From Deltaproteobacteria bacterium (GTDB taxonomy: Bacteria > JAEEML01): 35,042 bases of DNA. A model generated the notes under the pieces. The model saw only the letters and a program-made list of their open reading frames with translations. It had not been told where the DNA came from and made no database searches. This document shows positions 1 to 32,331 of this stretch, piece after piece. The position numbers and the translations under genes were made by a program. The DNA is taken from contig JAEEML010000041.1 in the NCBI GenBank assembly GCA_016283195.1, positions 1 to 35,042 of the forward strand, in the 5' to 3' direction. Every line of letters begins with the position of its first letter. The first letter of the stretch is position 1.

Positions 1-681
1 CCCGATGCGTCTTATATCGAGGCGCATTGAAGCATAAAATTTTAGAGCATTGCCGCCGGTGGTAGTCTCCGGATTGCCAAACATCACCCCCAGTTTTTGG
101 CGAATTTGGTTAATAAAAATCAGCATGGTGTTGCTCTGGTGAGCGGCGGCTGTGAGCTTGCGCAGTGCCTGACTCATAAGGCGGGCTTGTAAGCCCATGT
201 GGGAATCGCCCATATCGCCATCCAGTTCGGCTTTGGGAGTTAGAGCCGCCACAGAATCGACAACCACTATAGCCACCTGCTCGGAGCGAATGAGCGACTC
301 GGCAATTTCGAGAGCCTGCTCGCCGAAATCTGGCTGTGAAATCAGCAAATTATTGGGATCGACGCCGATATTTTTGGCATATTTTATATCAAGAGCGTGT
401 TCGGCATCTATATAGGCGCAAAGGCCGCCCAAAGCTTGCGCCTGCGCCACGGCATGGAGCGCCAGCGTGGTTTTGCCGGAAGATTCCGGGCCGTAAATTT
501 CCATAATGCGCCCTTTGGGCAGGCCGCCGATACCGAGAGCCCGATCGAGCGCCAAGCTGCCGCTGGATATCACGCCCACTTCCTGGTGTGGCCCCTCTTC
601 GCCCAGTAGCATGAGCGCGCCGGCGCCGAATTGCCGTTCGATTTGGCTGATGATCTCTTTTACACTGCTTTTGGCTTCCAT
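1..681 (-). CDS. recA: Recombinase RecA, C-terminus beyond the window
   Basis: RecA forms the ATP-dependent nucleoprotein filament that does homologous strand exchange and activates SOS self-cleavage. The visible 227 residues are the N-terminal helix, the polymerisation region and most of the core. The Walker A motif GPESSGKTT is at about residues 64-72, followed by the conserved [10 protein letters not shown] segment, the Walker B-like [12 protein letters not shown], and the L1/L2 region with [20 protein letters not shown]. The visible part ends in the family sequence [13 protein letters not shown], so the frame is open into the window edge. The ATG at 681 has an AAAAGGAGAAC ribosome binding site. 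The gene follows comM by 31 bp, so the two are probably co-transcribed; both act in processing of recombination intermediates. No LexA-type box was recognised in the short gap. Identification is certain; only the C-terminal part is missing. Confidence 0.97.
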
Positions 682-712: not shown

Positions 713-2245
713 TTAAAATTCGCGATCCAAAACGCGATATTGTATAGCTTCCGAAAGATGCGAAAGATGAATATTTTCGCTATGATCCAAATCGGCAATG
801 GTTCTTGCCAGTTTCAAAATGCGGTCGCCGGCCCTAGCGCTCATGCCCAGGCGATCGATGACATTTTCCAGTAAATGGTGGCCGGCGCTATCAAGAGCGC
901 AAAATTCTTTAAGCTCTCTTTTGCCCATCTGGGCGTTATTTAAAATGCCGCGCTCTTTATAGCGATCTTTTTGCACCGCTCTGGCCGCGAGTACTCTTTT
1001 TCTTATCTCGGCCGAACTTTCGGCGGCGCTATTTTGCTGAATCATCTCATTATAGCGTAGCGCCGGCACCTCCACCTGAATATCGATGCGGTCCAGTAGC
1101 GGCCCGGAAATGCGCGCCCGATACATGGCAATTTGCTGCGGCGAACATTTGCAGTTATGGCGCGGATCGGTGGCATAGCCGCAAGGACAGGGATTAAGCG
1201 CCGCTACCAGCATTACCTTGGCCGGAAATTCCAGGCTCATCAGCGCTCGGCTGATAAGTACGCGATTTTCTTCCAAAGGCTGGCGTAGCACCTCCAAGAC
1301 CTGCTTCTTAAATTCCGGCAGTTCGTCCAAAAAGAGTACACCGCAGTGGGCCAAAGATATTTCCCCGGGGTGCGGAAAACTGCCGCCGCCGATTAAAGCC
1401 ACATTGCTTATGGTGTGGTGCGGCGATCTAAAGGGGCGATTTACCAAAAGACCGTGATCTTTCGGCAACTTACCGGCCACTGAGTAAATTTTGGTTACCT
1501 CGATGCTCTCCTCAAATTCCATGGGCGGCAATACCGAAGGTATGCGCCGGGCCAACATGGTTTTGCCGGAGCCGGGCGGGCCAATCATCAATAGATTATG
1601 GCCGCCGGCTGCCGCGACTTCTATGGCTCTTTTGGCCGTATGCTGGCCGCTCACCTCAGCTAAATCGGCTGAACCCTGCCAAATATTGCTATCCTTATCG
1701 GAGAGCTCGCCATATATGGGCTCAATATGTTTTTCGCCGCGAAAATACTCAATAAGATCTTTTAAATTGTGTACCGGCAGGATTTTGAGCCCCTCGGCAA
1801 TGGCTGCTTCGGCCAGATTAGCTGCCGGAATAATGAGTGTTTTGGCGGGATTTTGCTCTTGCGCCAAAATAGCCAGCGATAATGTGCCGCGCACCGGCAA
1901 AATATCGCCGCCCAAAGATAGCTCGCCCACACTCAAATAATCATTTAGTGCTTCAGCCGGTATGTCGCCGGTGGCTCCCAAAAGCCCCAGAGCTATTGAC
2001 AAATCAAAAGAGGTGCCGTCTTTTCTGATATCGGCCGGAGCGAGATTTACCGTGATGCGCCGGTCCGGCAGATGATAGCCGCAATTTTTGATGGCCGCCA
2101 GTACCCTGGTTTTACTTTCTCTTACGGCCATTTCTGGTAAGCCCACTATATTGAAGGCCGGCAGACCCATAGCCAAATCTACTTCCACTTGCACCGGATA
2201 GGCATCAACGCCCACCACGGCTCCCGATAATACTGTGCTTAACAT
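713..2245 (-). CDS. comM: YifB/ComM-family AAA+ ATPase (Mg-chelatase-like)
   Basis: The protein has 510 residues, normal for ComM/YifB. In naturally competent bacteria ComM is a hexameric helicase that drives branch migration during integration of transforming DNA; many non-competent species also carry it. The N-terminal Lon-protease-like ChlI domain (about residues 1-165) starts with the family pattern [20 protein letters not shown] and contains [19 protein letters not shown]. The AAA+ core shows Walker [11 protein letters not shown], Walker [12 protein letters not shown] and the sensor region [16 protein letters not shown] Cys cluster, CPCGY...CKC, sits between them. An in-frame start 14 codons upstream exists, but the ATG at 2245 has a strong GGGAGGTGG site and matches the family N-terminus. 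Its placement directly before recA fits a joint role in recombination. Whether this organism is competent cannot be told from the window. Confidence 0.93.
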
Positions 2246-2361
2246 CAGCCACCTCCCGGGCTGTGAATAAAGCAAGAAGCGTGCCAAATTGCTTTACTTA
2301 AAGAAAAGTAGTTAAAATTCAAAATGATATACGAAAAGTGGTAATTTTTCCGTGCAGTGAA

Positions 2362-2435
2362 AAAAGTGTGTCAAAAGTGTGTCAGGTGTGTCAAAAGTGT
2401 GCCAAAAGTGTGCCAGGTGTGTCAAAAGTGTTTCA
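2362..2435. repeat. Phased array of seven TGTGTCA-type heptamers
   Basis: Seven direct copies of a heptamer start at 2367, 2378, 2387, 2398, 2409, 2418 and 2429. The copies read TGTGTCA (four), TGTGCCA (two) and TGTTTCA (the last, which is the left half of the parS site). Steps are 11, 9, 11, 11, 9 and 11 bp, so the mean is 10.3 bp, about one helical turn, and all copies face the same side of the DNA. The array is also two copies of a 31-bp higher-order unit (11+11+9). Each heptamer differs from the parS half-site TGTTTCA by one or two bases. It lies in the 205-bp gap between sprT and comM, which holds no gene. Confidence 0.85.
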
Positions 2436-2444
2436 TGTGAAACA
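2429..2444. other. Candidate parS centromere site
   Basis: The 16-mer TGTTTCATGTGAAACA has perfect 7-bp arms around a 2-bp centre. It differs at a single central base from the well-known chromosomal parS consensus TGTTTCACGTGAAACA bound by ParB. It sits 6 bp beyond the stop codon of the sprT-like gene. Chromosomal parS sites usually cluster near the replication origin, so the window may be origin-proximal. No parA or parB gene is in the window. Confidence 0.7.
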
Positions 2445-2450
2445 ATCAAT

Positions 2451-3242
2451 TTAATAGCGCATGAGTCTGGCGATATTTTTTTCTTCCCAGGCATGAGCCT
2501 TTTCGTAATCGGCAAATTCTTTTTCGGCAAATTCCAGTTTGGCCGGGTGAATAATGCGCCGGCCGGTAATAGCACTGCGGTTGTCTACACCAAAATGGGC
2601 ATGGAGCATTTCATGATAAATGACAAAAGAGACATAGTATGAAGGCACAAAATACTGATCGAGAGCCGGGTGAATGCGAATCATCTTTTGGGAGGCGTTA
2701 TAACTGCCCATTTGCATTTTTTGGCGTTTTCTCCGGCGCACCACATTGCCCCAGGTAATCTTGGCCTCAATAGTATTTTTAAAATAGCGGCTGTTTATAT
2801 AGTCAAACATTTCCTGCAAATCGTGAAACTCACCCTTGGTACTGATACGCTGTTTGCGAGGTGGTGGCGGGGCAATCTCATCGCGATGTTCTTTTATAAA
2901 ATTATCCAAAATCATTGAAGATTTTTTGTTGCCATCTACAATGAAACGAGCCAGTTCTCCGGCTACTTTAGGGTCGGCGCCCAAAAACATGTGGTGGAGG
3001 CGCACAACGTAAAAAAAGCCGTTTTTTTTGGCAGAAATGAGGCGGCTGGCGTTATCGGTTAAGATAAGGCTGATGTTTAAGCCGGTGAGTTTTTTTAAAG
3101 CCAGCTCTAAATTGCGTCTTTGGCTCTCTTCTATTTCTGCTATTGGGTCACTTATAGCTTGCGCTACCGCCGGATCCAAGAGGGCATAAGGGTCATCTTC
3201 CGGCAATTCAAAGGCCAAATCAAGTTGCCGCCCATTTTTCAT
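2451..3242 (-). CDS. SprT-like zinc metallopeptidase
   Basis: The protein has 263 residues. The C-terminal half (about residues 135-263) resembles the SprT/Spartan metallopeptidase fold: a region starting near DLQEMFDYINSRYF, a strand with ITWG, and the zinc-binding helix motif HEMLH at residues 210-214 followed by another His. The N-terminal 130 residues are not recognised. SprT-like proteases in eukaryotes cut DNA-protein crosslinks; bacterial SprT function is largely unknown, so a DNA-repair role next to comM and recA is only a suggestion. The start codon overlaps the stop of the upstream FHA gene (ATGA, 4 bp), which points to translational coupling. Its 3' end abuts the parS-like site. 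Confidence 0.8.
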   Translation of the reverse strand: MKNGRQLDLAFELPEDDPYALLDPAVAQAISDPIAEIEESQRRNLELALKKLTGLNISLILTDNASRLISAKKNGFFYVVRLHHMFLGADPKVAGELARFIVDGNKKSSMILDNFIKEHRDEIAPPPPRKQRISTKGEFHDLQEMFDYINSRYFKNTIEAKITWGNVVRRRKRQKMQMGSYNASQKMIRIHPALDQYFVPSYYVSFVIYHEMLHAHFGVDNRSAITGRRIIHPAKLEFAEKEFADYEKAHAWEEKNIARLMRY

Positions 3243-4321
3243 AAGAATAATAATACCAAGATGATAATGCCGATAACCAAAATAACGCCGCCGGCTACAA
3301 GGGCAATTATACCAAGAGAAGATTTTTCTTCCACCGGCTCTAAAAGATCGGCATCAATATCATCCGGCAGAACATCGTCTTCACCAAGGTCTTCGCCTTC
3401 GCCCTCAGGCTGGGGAGCTTCTGGTGCCTTTGAAGCGTCTTCGGCAGGAGGATTCTCTTCCGGCGCTTTTTCGCCTTCCGGAGGCGGTTCTATATCGGCA
3501 AGATGTTCGGCTGAGCCGTCTGCCGCTTGCTCGCTACTGGCGTCGTCATCATATTTGTTATTGTTATCAAAGCCTTCTATTTGGTCTATGGCATTAAAAA
3601 GCTCATAATTAGGATCAACAAAGAGCAGTTTTACCGGCCCGATGAGTATTTCATCGCGGTGGCGCAAAAAACGGCGCTTAATTACTTTTTTGTCATTTAC
3701 GAGCACACCGTTTTTGGAGCCTAAATCTTCAACATAATAACCTTCCCAATCTTTTCTTATGATGGCGTGGCGCCGGGAAATATTGGGGTCATTAATAATA
3801 AAATCGCAATCTTTGCTGCGGCCCATAAACCATTCGTTGGAATTGCCGAAAACAAAGCGTGTGCCTTCATCAATGCCATTTAATACGCGGAGATAAGGCC
3901 CTTCATCATGGGCATTGCCGTGGTTTATACCGCTCAAAATTTCTTCCACCGCTTTAGCGGCCAGAGCTTGTGTTTTTTCGCCGACAGTGCTTGCCGCCGG
4001 CGCACTTTCCTCAAGCTCAATAGCTACGGTAATACGCACGGTAGCTAGCTCAATAATATCGCCGGAGCTTAAGACTTTCTTTTCGTCTCCCTCCAGCTTT
4101 TTGCCGTTAACCATGGTGCCGTAGGTAGAGCGTAAATCCTGGATAATATAAGTATCATCCTGAAAATAAACGCGACAATGCTGGCGAGAAATGGCGGCAA
4201 CCGGTACCTGGAAATCACATTTGGAATCGCGCCCAAGGGTAATGCTGTCGGCGGAGCTTTCAAAAGCCAAAGCTCGGGCGGCTTTTCCCTCTTCTTCCAG
4301 TACTGCAGTAAAGCGAATCAT
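3239..4321 (-). CDS. Two-FHA-domain protein with C-terminal membrane anchor
   Basis: The protein has 360 residues and two forkhead-associated domains, which bind phosphothreonine peptides. FHA1 (about residues 15-95) has ITLGRDSKCDF, the SRQH core and STYGTMVNG. FHA2 (about residues 145-225) has WFMGRSKDCDF, SRRH and GSKNGVLVN. An acidic, Pro/Glu/Ala-rich linker follows (about 255-330), then a single hydrophobic segment at the extreme C-terminus (about 334-360). This makes it a tail-anchored inner-membrane protein with cytoplasmic FHA heads. An in-frame TTG lies 6 codons upstream but is too close to its AAGGAG; the ATG at 4321 has GGGAG 10 nt upstream and gives a typical FHA N-terminus. No Ser/Thr kinase is in the window, so the phosphorylated partner is unknown. 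Confidence 0.85.
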   Translation of the reverse strand: MIRFTAVLEEEGKAARALAFESSADSITLGRDSKCDFQVPVAAISRQHCRVYFQDDTYIIQDLRSTYGTMVNGKKLEGDEKKVLSSGDIIELATVRITVAIELEESAPAASTVGEKTQALAAKAVEEILSGINHGNAHDEGPYLRVLNGIDEGTRFVFGNSNEWFMGRSKDCDFIINDPNISRRHAIIRKDWEGYYVEDLGSKNGVLVNDKKVIKRRFLRHRDEILIGPVKLLFVDPNYELFNAIDQIEGFDNNNKYDDDASSEQAADGSAEHLADIEPPPEGEKAPEENPPAEDASKAPEAPQPEGEGEDLGEDDVLPDDIDADLLEPVEEKSSLGIIALVAGGVILVIGIIILVLLFL

Positions 4322-17528: not shown

Positions 17529-18917
17529 TTAAACGCGCCGGTTATCGGCAGTAATTTCATACTCTTTTTTCAGGCGGTAAATGGTGCTGCGGCTGATATT
17601 AAGCTTTTTGGCCGCAAGACTCATATTACCGCGACAGTGCACTAAAGTTTCTAAAAAATATTCGCGGGTTATTGTTGCAGAAGAATTAGTGTTTATAAAA
17701 GTTATATTGTCTTCCTCCTCCTTTAAAGGCACTTTTTCCTCTCCTTTTTGGGCTTCTTCCCGGGGCTTTGGTTCTTCTTTTGGGGCTGTTTTGGTAAGGC
17801 AAATGTCTGCCGCATCTAAAATATTAGCCCGGTTTTGGCAAATAGTAAGCTGAATGCAATTAGCCAGTTCACGGATATTACCCGGCCAGTTATGCTGTAA
17901 AAGAAGATCTTGAGCCGCTTTGGTGAAATGTTTTTGAGCGGCACCGAATTTATGCAAAAAGTAATCCGCCAGTAGCAGAATATCCCGACCTCTTTCTCTA
18001 AGTGGCGGAACTTCTATAGGAAAAGCGGAGAGTCTATAAAAAAGATCCTCGCGAAAAAGATTTTTCGCCACCATTTGGGAGAGCTCGCGGTGGCTGGCGG
18101 TAATGAGGCGCACGTTTACTTTTAGCGGCATACTAGCGCCCAGCGGGGTGATTTCCCCATATTCCACGGCGCGGAGCAGAGCCGGTTGCATGGTAAGCGG
18201 CAGCTCGCCTATTTCGTCTAAAAAGAGCATCCCGCCGCTGGCGGCCATGAAAGCGCCCTGGTGGTTTTCGCTGGCGCCGGTAAAGGCTCCCTTTTTGTGG
18301 CCGAAGAGTTCGCTTGAGAGGAGGTTGTCGGTAAATGTGGCACAGTTGCGCACCAAAAAAGGCCCATCTTCTTTAGGATAAGCCAGTTCATAAAGAGCTT
18401 TGGCTACCAGCTCTTTGCCGCTCCCGGTTTCGCCGTGAATTAGTACCGGTAAACGGCTGGTGGCGGCTTTTTCTATCTCGCTATAGAGCTTTTTCATTGG
18501 CTGGCTTTCACCCAAAATGCCATGCCAGAGCTTAAAGTGCTGGCTATTTGTTGCATTTGCTTCCTGAAAAAAGGTGAGGCGGCTTCTGCCGGCTTCGATA
18601 AGGCATTTTTCGCTAAGTTCCAGCTCCTTAACCAGGCGCCCGTCAACTCTGGTGCCGTTGGTACTGCCTAAATCTTTTAAAAAATAACGGCTGCCTTTTT
18701 GGTAGATGGTGAAGTGATTGGCCGACATATAAGGGTCATTGCAGATAAAATCGCACTCCGCACCGCTGCCAATGGTGAACCGGCTGCTCTTGATAGCTAT
18801 TTGGGCTTTTTCGTTTAGCAAAAAAGCGGGCCGCGGCAGCCTTTGGGTGGTGAGCGCCGGCGCCCATTTCAAAGTGTGGCCTCCGCTAGGGCCCAATTCG
18901 TGATATTGTTCTTCCAT
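17529..18917 (-). CDS. FHA-domain sigma-54-dependent transcriptional activator
   Basis: The 462-residue protein is a bacterial enhancer-binding protein. The N-terminal FHA domain (about residues 40-120) has FTIGSGAECDF, an SANH core and GSTNGTRVDG, and would sense a phosphothreonine protein. The central AAA+ domain has Walker A GETGSGKE, the sigma-54 contact loop GAFTGA at residues 210-215, Walker B GMLFLDEIGE, the LFREDLFYRLSAFPIEVPPL block and WPGNIREL. A Lys/Glu-rich linker leads to a C-terminal Fis-type helix-turn-helix (MSLAAKKLNISRSTIYRLKK). All parts needed for open-complex formation are present. Of two adjacent ATG codons the second (18917) has GGAG at the better distance. It is divergent from the small lipoprotein at 19250 and is the likely regulator of the -24/-12 promoter at 30466. 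Confidence 0.93.
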   Translation of the reverse strand: MEEQYHELGPSGGHTLKWAPALTTQRLPRPAFLLNEKAQIAIKSSRFTIGSGAECDFICNDPYMSANHFTIYQKGSRYFLKDLGSTNGTRVDGRLVKELELSEKCLIEAGRSRLTFFQEANATNSQHFKLWHGILGESQPMKKLYSEIEKAATSRLPVLIHGETGSGKELVAKALYELAYPKEDGPFLVRNCATFTDNLLSSELFGHKKGAFTGASENHQGAFMAASGGMLFLDEIGELPLTMQPALLRAVEYGEITPLGASMPLKVNVRLITASHRELSQMVAKNLFREDLFYRLSAFPIEVPPLRERGRDILLLADYFLHKFGAAQKHFTKAAQDLLLQHNWPGNIRELANCIQLTICQNRANILDAADICLTKTAPKEEPKPREEAQKGEEKVPLKEEEDNITFINTNSSATITREYFLETLVHCRGNMSLAAKKLNISRSTIYRLKKEYEITADNRRV

Positions 18918-19017
18918 CATTTACTCCGCAAGAACGATGCTTAAAATTGAGGACTTTCTAGCACTTTGGCCAGGCAATTACAAGACAATATTTTACTATG
19001 TGACAACCAATTAATTC

Positions 19018-30362: not shown

Positions 30363-30376
30363 TGACAAAAATGTCA
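30363..30376. promoter_or_regulatory. Inverted repeat, candidate activator site or weak terminator
   Basis: TGACA-AAAA-TGTCA is a perfect 5-bp inverted repeat just after the stop of the membrane protein. It is about 120 bp upstream of the predicted start site of the -24/-12 promoter, the usual position for an enhancer-binding protein. As a hairpin followed by AT-rich DNA it could instead be a weak terminator for the upstream series. Confidence 0.35.
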
Positions 30377-30465
30377 CTATTTTAAATATATTTGCAATAG
30401 CAGTACTCCTCAAAAGACAAAGCATAACAATTGAATATTATTTCACAAAACAATAGTTTTCTTTT

Positions 30466-30482
30466 TTGGCATAGATTTTGCA
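30466..30482 (+). promoter_or_regulatory. Sigma-54 (-24/-12) promoter
   Basis: TTGGCATAGATTTTGCA matches the sigma-54 consensus YTGGCAC-N5-TTGCW, with GG at 30468-30469 and GC at 30480-30481, exactly 12 bp apart. Only the sixth base (T for C) departs from consensus. It points at the lipoprotein gene starting 59 bp further on, with transcription expected near 30493. A sigma-54 activator gene is in the same window. Confidence 0.7.
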
Positions 30483-30539: not shown

Positions 30540-31262
30540 ATGAAAAAGGCAAGATTAACTTTTGTAGCGATGCTGGCAACTATGGTTTTGGCTTTTGGAG
30601 CCTGCGATAAACCTCTTGATGAGTGCCAAGATGGTAAGGACTGTAAAATAATGCCCAATCAGGCTATTGGGGAGGTTTCCAAATGTATCGACAACTCAGC
30701 TGGTGGCGATGTTCCGGTTCCGGCTGTCGATGCGGCCTCAGACGCAGCCAGCGATGCCAACTCTGATGATGCGGATAGCGATGAAGGTAATGATGGCGAT
30801 AGCGATGATATACAAATTGCCCCCAATGATGGCAACAGCGATGATGATGGTTCCTCGGATGTGACTATTGCTCCGGCACCGTCGCCTGATGGTTTCTCCT
30901 GGAGCTACGATGCCGCCAGCAAAACTCTCACTGTTAAACACGATGGCAGTTGTTTTGAATGTGGCTGGGACGTAGGTGTTACGATGCTTAAACAAGGTGA
31001 AAACGATGTCATTGAAGTTCTCGAAAGTATCAACGCCACTCTAGGTACCGATTGTCTTTGCGCTCGTGATATTAGCGTCAGCATGGCTGGTATTGAAGGC
31101 TCCTCCATCAGCTTTAAGTATTCACAGAGTGTTGTCATAGACAGCAAAGTTGACCTCGTTGAGGTCTTTGATGGCGCCCTCGAGCTCTCCAAGAAAAGCG
31201 GTAAAGAGAGCTTTAGCGCTAAGTTGCCTAATGTTTACACCCCGGAACGCTGTGCTAAATAA
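30540..31262 (+). CDS. Small acidic Cys-rich lipoprotein, paralog of the one at 19250
   Basis: The 240-residue protein has a signal peptide with lipid attachment expected at Cys22 (FGAC). A low-complexity Asp/Ser/Asn-rich, very acidic linker (about residues 58-105) separates the anchor from the folded domain. That domain contains FSWSYDAASKTLTVKHD, a CxxC (CFEC), DCLC and a C-terminal RC, in the same order as the paralog at 19250, which lacks the acidic linker. The acidic linker may bind cations or act as a stalk. The ATG at 30540 has AGGAG at a normal distance. It is the only gene after the sigma-54 promoter, and it converges with the CPBP protease gene. The protein family was not recognised. 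Confidence 0.8.
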   Translation: MKKARLTFVAMLATMVLAFGACDKPLDECQDGKDCKIMPNQAIGEVSKCIDNSAGGDVPVPAVDAASDAASDANSDDADSDEGNDGDSDDIQIAPNDGNSDDDGSSDVTIAPAPSPDGFSWSYDAASKTLTVKHDGSCFECGWDVGVTMLKQGENDVIEVLESINATLGTDCLCARDISVSMAGIEGSSISFKYSQSVVIDSKVDLVEVFDGALELSKKSGKESFSAKLPNVYTPERCAK

Positions 31263-32025: not shown

Positions 32026-32110
32026 CTTGCCGGTAGCGAGGGGGAACTTGTCGTAATTATAGGCCCTTTTATTGGCTATAAGATCAAGGAGCCCCTCGCC
32101 ATTTGTAAAA

Positions 32111-32331
32111 ATGGAGAGGGGCGCGATGCTGTAATTTTCACTGCCTGTCGGGGTGAGGGAATGAGAAATGGAGAGGGGCGCGATGCTGTAATTCTCACTA
32201 CCCGTCGGGGTGAGGGAATAAAAAATGGAGAGGGGCGCGATGCTATAATTCTCACTGCCTGTCGGGGTGAGGGAATAAAAAATGGAGAGGGGCGCGATGC
32301 TGTAATTCTCACTGCCTGTCGGGGTGAGGGA
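32111..32331. repeat. 57-bp tandem repeat, about 3.9 copies
   Basis: Copies start at 32111, 32168, 32225 and 32282, each opening with ATGGAGAGGGGCGCGATGCT and ending in GTCGGGGTGAGGGA. They differ at only a few bases. As 57 is a multiple of three, the minus strand stays open with a 19-residue unit, SLTPTGSENYSIAPLSIFY, inside an open frame at 31993-32355 that begins 5 bp after the VWA gene stop. There is no good ribosome site, so a protein product is doubtful. The array occupies the 370-bp gap between the VWA gene and the CPBP protease gene. Confidence 0.9.

Follow-up and report, generated by a model that had tools for sequence, protein, structure and literature searches.

A helically phased octamer array upstream of comM as a likely sigma-54 enhancer of a candidate DNA-uptake and recombination regulon

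Between an SprT-like gene and comM, a 35,042-nucleotide stretch of bacterial DNA (the whole stretch analysed, hereafter the window) carries a row of short direct repeats that ends in a palindrome resembling parS, and we asked which kind of protein such a row would serve. A first-pass annotation had offered two answers, a ParB loading or spreading element or the site of another protein that evolved from parS. The parts of the locus are:

1..681, minus strand: recA, cut by the window edge and identified by reading the translated protein
713..2245, minus strand: comM, YifB family (ChlI-Mg_chelatase-Mg_chelatase_C; TIGR00368, E 2.9e-187; PF13541, PF01078, PF13335)
2272..2286, minus strand: sigma-54 -24/-12 promoter TGGCACGCTTCTTGC (TGGCACG-CTTC-TTGC), just before comM
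2287..2365, minus strand: A+T-rich spacer between array and promoter
2362..2423, no strand assigned: duplicated 31-bp unit (11+9+11), copies 2362-2392 and 2393-2423
2366..2424, read on the minus strand: six direct octamers, plus-strand starts 2366, 2377, 2386, 2397, 2408 and 2417
2429..2444, no strand assigned: promoter-distal 16-bp palindrome TGTTTCAYRTGAAACA (written TGTTTCATGTGAAACA in the array check), in the register of the seventh octamer
2451..3242, minus strand: upstream SprT-like metalloprotease gene (PF10263, E 0.00024, below Pfam's cut-off)

The six GTGTGYCA octamers appear as GTGTGTCA or GTGTGCCA on the plus strand and as TGACACAC or TGGCACAC on the minus strand, which is the functional direction of the array. 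A seventh copy, GTGTTTCA, starts at 2428 and continues into the palindrome, where its register reads TGAAACAC, 149 bp from the -24 box; the stop codon of the SprT-like gene lies 6 bp before the palindrome. Octamer starts bear out the spacing of 11, 9, 11, 11, 9 and 11 bp that the first-pass annotation had given, and the repeats are, as it had also claimed, in helical phase with each other. The 31-bp duplication it described is present together with a third, partial copy (TRF: period 31, 2.4 copies, 90% matches). Overlapping octamer-pair matches numbered five in the window versus none in 100 shuffles, and the array is far above chance expectation. A structured RNA or terminator was considered and rejected: shuffled sequences fold as well as the array strand does (z -0.27), and a tRNA is the only Rfam match in the window.

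Searching the 3.2-Mb draft genome (190 contigs) with GTGTGYCA-N1-3-GTGTGYCA gave 31 matches, against none for the reversed control pattern. These fall in eight clusters, one in the window (C69) and the others on contigs C7, C19, C68, C72, C82, C88 and C186, with five to nine octamers per array. On C7, C68, C82 and C88 the distal end is the palindrome TGTGTCACCTGACACA, whose register matches that of the parS-like palindrome at comM, and a distal dyad is present at these four loci and comM, five in all. Judged by this shared register, what stands at comM is a parS-like form of a dyad that is part of the array itself. As several of the arrays stand in promoters of Rpn-family genes that are duplicates of one another, the eight clusters amount to about four independent contexts.

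Does the palindrome nonetheless make the array a ParB element, with octamers as half-sites that feed a full parS? The near-perfect parS claimed at the array end is there, 2429-2444 being one mismatch from TGTTTCACGTGAAACA; a single base separates the octamer from a parS arm, and the genome encodes a ParB. A genome-wide parS search found four further parS-like sites, giving five with at most one mismatch (the window, C46, C82 and two on C87) against about 0.1 expected by chance in 3.2 Mb by arithmetic; only sites at this threshold are informative, because the reversed control also matches at two mismatches. Two of the four others match TGTTNCACGTGAAACA perfectly, and the C87 pair lies on the dnaN contig, one site beside dnaN itself. 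However, arrays and parS-like sites occur apart across the genome, which argues against the array being an accessory of parS: a parS-like site stands at one of the eight arrays, and an array at one of the five parS-like sites. The arrays on C7, C19, C68, C72, C82, C88 and C186 have no adjoining parS (the C82 site is 11 kb off), and the sites on C46, C82 and C87 have no octamers. The description of the repeats as parS-like half-sites thus survives in part: they are phased half-sites for a DNA-binding protein, but position 4, a T in parS, is G in all octamers other than the terminal copy. They also accompany sigma-54 promoters, which are foreign to ParB systems, and we regard a ParB loading or spreading element as highly improbable. 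The second proposal, another protein descended from the parS system, fared no better. The genome has a single TIGR00180 match and no second ParB-family or Noc-like paralogue, so that a Noc-like ParB descendant is not supported.

At all array loci the sequence TGGCAYR-N4-TTGC follows downstream in the same orientation, and where the contig continues, a ribosome-binding site and then a start codon come after it. At comM, the first gene past the promoter, the ATG follows the start of the -24 box by 41 bp. Exact sigma-54 sites (GG-N10-GC type, TGGCAC-N5-TTGC) number 32 in the genome versus two for the reversed control. The perfect octamer nearest to the -24 box is 75-88 bp away (86 on C68, which has a one-mismatch copy at 75); with one-mismatch copies counted, seven loci have a distance of 75-78 bp and comM one of 87 bp, two classes about one helical turn apart. 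At comM the six direct octamers start 87-138 bp ahead of the -24 box; over all arrays, octamers lie 75-161 bp upstream of it, where sites at about 80-200 bp would be expected of an upstream activating sequence. At a period of 10.5 bp, octamer positions relative to the -24 box have a vector strength of 0.82 when pooled, and of 0.81 for four promoters with unrelated spacers, indicating that the octamers also share a helix side with the promoter site. The spacers differ in sequence between regulon classes and are kept in length to about one helical turn; no IHF-like site within one mismatch of WATCARNNNNTTR was found in the spacer.

Fixed geometry also bears on the idea that the array is a mobile or REP-like repeat, dispersed in the genome and present here by accident. 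The arrays are indeed multi-copy and tandem, and some of them accompany duplicated Rpn genes or stand at the ends of contigs, but orientation and promoter distance are fixed in four unrelated sequence contexts and plasmids gave no array match; we find this origin scarcely credible. One collapsed promoter copy was seen on C79 (L106, ~3480-3520), where the palindrome and one octamer are fused directly to TGGCACGCAATTTGC, possibly because the octamer TGGCACAC recombined with the similar-looking -24 box TGGCACGC.

We then applied one uniform rule, three octamers followed by a sigma-54 match within 200 bp, inside and outside this genome. In its own genome, six of six arrays so defined had the promoter; the C19 and C68 arrays fall outside the rule, having no three perfect octamers running, and the promoter is present at both. 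Among unrelated GTDB arrays, many of them simple tandem repeats, none of 90 had an exact sigma-54 promoter within 200 bp (88-90 stretches), and none of 43 did among viral contigs (42-43 stretches). A composite pattern of array plus promoter matched 11 times in its own genome, once in 385 other genomes, none of them a relative below domain level, and never in controls. The gene behind the one outside match (G300) is an unrelated one, and a search for a comparable comM gap gave distant SprT-like homologues. Two other patterns came up in these searches. Five Acidobacteria contigs (L129, L138, L161, L163, L171) carry TGGCACACTTGGCACAC-N3-TGGCACAC at spacings of 9 and 11 with no downstream sigma-54 match, possibly a different regulatory site, and 15 viral contigs (for example L213, L214 and L220) share a conserved stretch of TGRCACACACTTGRCACACATGRCACAC type that is perhaps coding sequence.

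The repeat grammar and the fixed place and orientation of the arrays relative to sigma-54 promoters can be read directly from the DNA, as can genes for RpoN (E 2.7e-117), for seven complete enhancer-binding activators (bEBPs) and for a PilS-PilR pair. We therefore consider it highly probable, on sequence grounds, that the array is the upstream activating sequence, or enhancer, of a sigma-54 promoter. From this we infer a mechanism in which an NtrC-family activator, most likely PilR, would bind the TGACACA half-sites, and because these lie about one helical turn apart, the bound subunits would all face the same side of the DNA. An activator dimer would occupy the distal dyad, and the direct copies, one subunit per turn, would aid assembly of the AAA+ oligomer; the octamer number of five to nine is close to that of the subunits in an AAA+ activator ring, six, which is suggestive only. 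The complex would then loop across the A+T-rich spacer (~75-87 bp) to the -24/-12 promoter and turn on comM, probably with recA. Looping and activator assembly are established steps of sigma-54 activation. It speaks against the model that a long row of direct half-sites is unusual, since most NtrC-like activators use dyads, as NmpR does with GCGCA-N5-TGCGC (PMC11841059).

Which activator would bind? The PilR-type regulator (C184, HTH_8) adjoins a kinase with a Pfam 6TM_PilS domain (E 7.4e-13). The pilA gene has a sigma-54 promoter, upstream of which lies a phased TGACACAATC-TGACACAAAG-TGACATTTTTTGTCAC series (TGACACA/TGACACA/TGACA). PilR is known for a preference for tandem TGTC elements (reportedly Jin et al. 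1994); no explicit tandem-TGTC wording for a PilR consensus was found in open papers. The pilA repeats and this preference together make PilR the best candidate, and we lean slightly towards it as the array binder. The link is suggestive only, because the pilA repeats are spaced 10 bp apart and lie ~350-425 bp from the promoter. Between these repeats and the pilA promoter on C189 sits sequence resembling a 57-bp tandem repeat of which the window holds four copies (32107-32331, AAAAATGGAGAGGGGCGCG...). Apparently a minisatellite-like insertion displaced the repeats, giving the impression that a mobile repeat moved the pilA enhancer away from its promoter. The enhancer at comM could also be real and its binder one of the other six bEBPs, including one encoded inside the window, and a second promoter class, with dyads, may point to several activators:

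17529-18920: sigma-54 activator with an FHA domain (PF00498, PF00158, HTH_8), candidate for either promoter class
30363-30481: second-class sigma-54 promoter of a lipoprotein-like gene (30540-31262), with dyad TGACAAAAATGTCA 104 bp upstream of TGGCATAGATTTTGC

TGACA-N4-TGTCA dyads, some with one mismatch, also lie 79-123 bp upstream of four further sigma-54 sites (C68, C136, C149 and C151), so there may be a further activator in use, or a different mode of PilR. With seven bEBPs encoded, a binder other than PilR has a substantial, if less than even, chance; against it stand the TGACACA repeats that the arrays have in common with the pilA promoter and the tandem TGTC elements for which PilR is known.

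Under the enhancer model, the genes behind the arrays would share one switch. The recA gene begins 31 bp past comM and is probably co-transcribed with it. The array on C186 is followed by a small ORF and then a ComEA-like gene (TIGR01259/HHH_3), and that on C7 by a small ORF related to the first. Rpn-family nuclease genes (TIGR01784/PF12784) stand behind arrays on C68, C82 and C19/C27, and the C72 and C88 contigs stop inside a promoter of the Rpn type. The small proteins form a family of ~72-80 residues (GVWSVV...KPIWMRMGTAFVNRD...; L046 4141-4428, L052 2176-2481) that stands first behind two arrays, once before comEA; it has no Pfam match, and the C7 copy has no NCBIfam match. ComM is described as the canonical helicase for branch migration during transformation in Gram-negative bacteria (PMC11612176). 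Published work connects Rpn proteins with horizontal transfer (PMC5350276) and reports them as toxin-antitoxin proteins of phage defence (PMC10327210). The known functions of these genes fit together and so count in favour of the model. The switch that would act on comM would also control the small-ORF/comEA pair, the other small ORF and several Rpn genes, and would thereby define a DNA-uptake and recombination regulon; most likely the arrays mark just such a regulon, of comM, probably recA, comEA, the small ORFs and the Rpn nucleases.

The parS likeness at comM still calls for an account, and one compatible with the enhancer model is that the distal dyad of this array also serves as a genuine ParB site. 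Beyond the single mismatch to parS and the excess of parS-like sites over chance, TGTTTCAYRTGAAACA recurs identically at two array-free sites. Relative to the array palindrome, both arms of the comM dyad carry one and the same change in mirror image, and random substitution of TGTGTCACCTGACACA comes within one mismatch of parS in <0.3% of trials. However, the dyad keeps the exact octamer register, and so it may be a mere variant of the activator dyad. We rate this double function as a serious possibility, somewhat short of an even chance; ParB binding at the comM promoter would then be a trait of its dyad and not of the array. A further step, in which the comM-recA dyad became a working parS, ParB occupancy gates a PilR/sigma-54 competence promoter feeding recA, and the other regulon loci keep a non-parS dyad, seems to us unlikely. 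If it held, origin segregation or cell-cycle state would gate the comM-recA promoter through ParB occupancy. In either case the comM dyad offers a clean test of whether activator and ParB sites can interchange by a few mirrored changes.

If the enhancer model is right, a long direct-repeat sigma-54 enhancer of natural-transformation genes would put three functions under common control, probably that of the pilus-sensing PilSR system: uptake through comEA, recombination through comM and probably recA, and the Rpn nucleases. The motif is strong enough for regulon prediction from sequence in a lineage whose relatives in the set searched do not come closer than the domain level.

Among known systems, the Noc binding site (NBS) corresponds to the first-pass option of a parS-related site for another protein, but the present genome has one ParB family member, and no Noc-like paralogue was found. 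The resemblance to parS lies in the terminal 16-bp palindrome; unlike parS, the array here belongs to a promoter, its octamers mismatch the parS arm, and at the seven arrays elsewhere the terminal palindrome is another one or is lacking. Like NtrC/NmpR-type enhancers, it places several bEBP sites upstream of each sigma-54 promoter at a preferred spacing; those enhancers use paired inverted repeats (GCGCA-N5-TGCGC in PMC11841059), whereas here the half-sites are mostly direct, with at most one dyad. PilR-type enhancers, such as those of pilA in Pseudomonas and Geobacter, also have tandem TGTC-containing elements upstream of a -24/-12 promoter, and a PilS-PilR pair is encoded in this genome too. 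In contrast to them, the arrays described here have five to nine uniform octamers at 11/9/11 spacing with a distal dyad at five loci, and whereas PilR-type targets are mainly pilin genes, these arrays precede comM-recA, comEA and Rpn genes.
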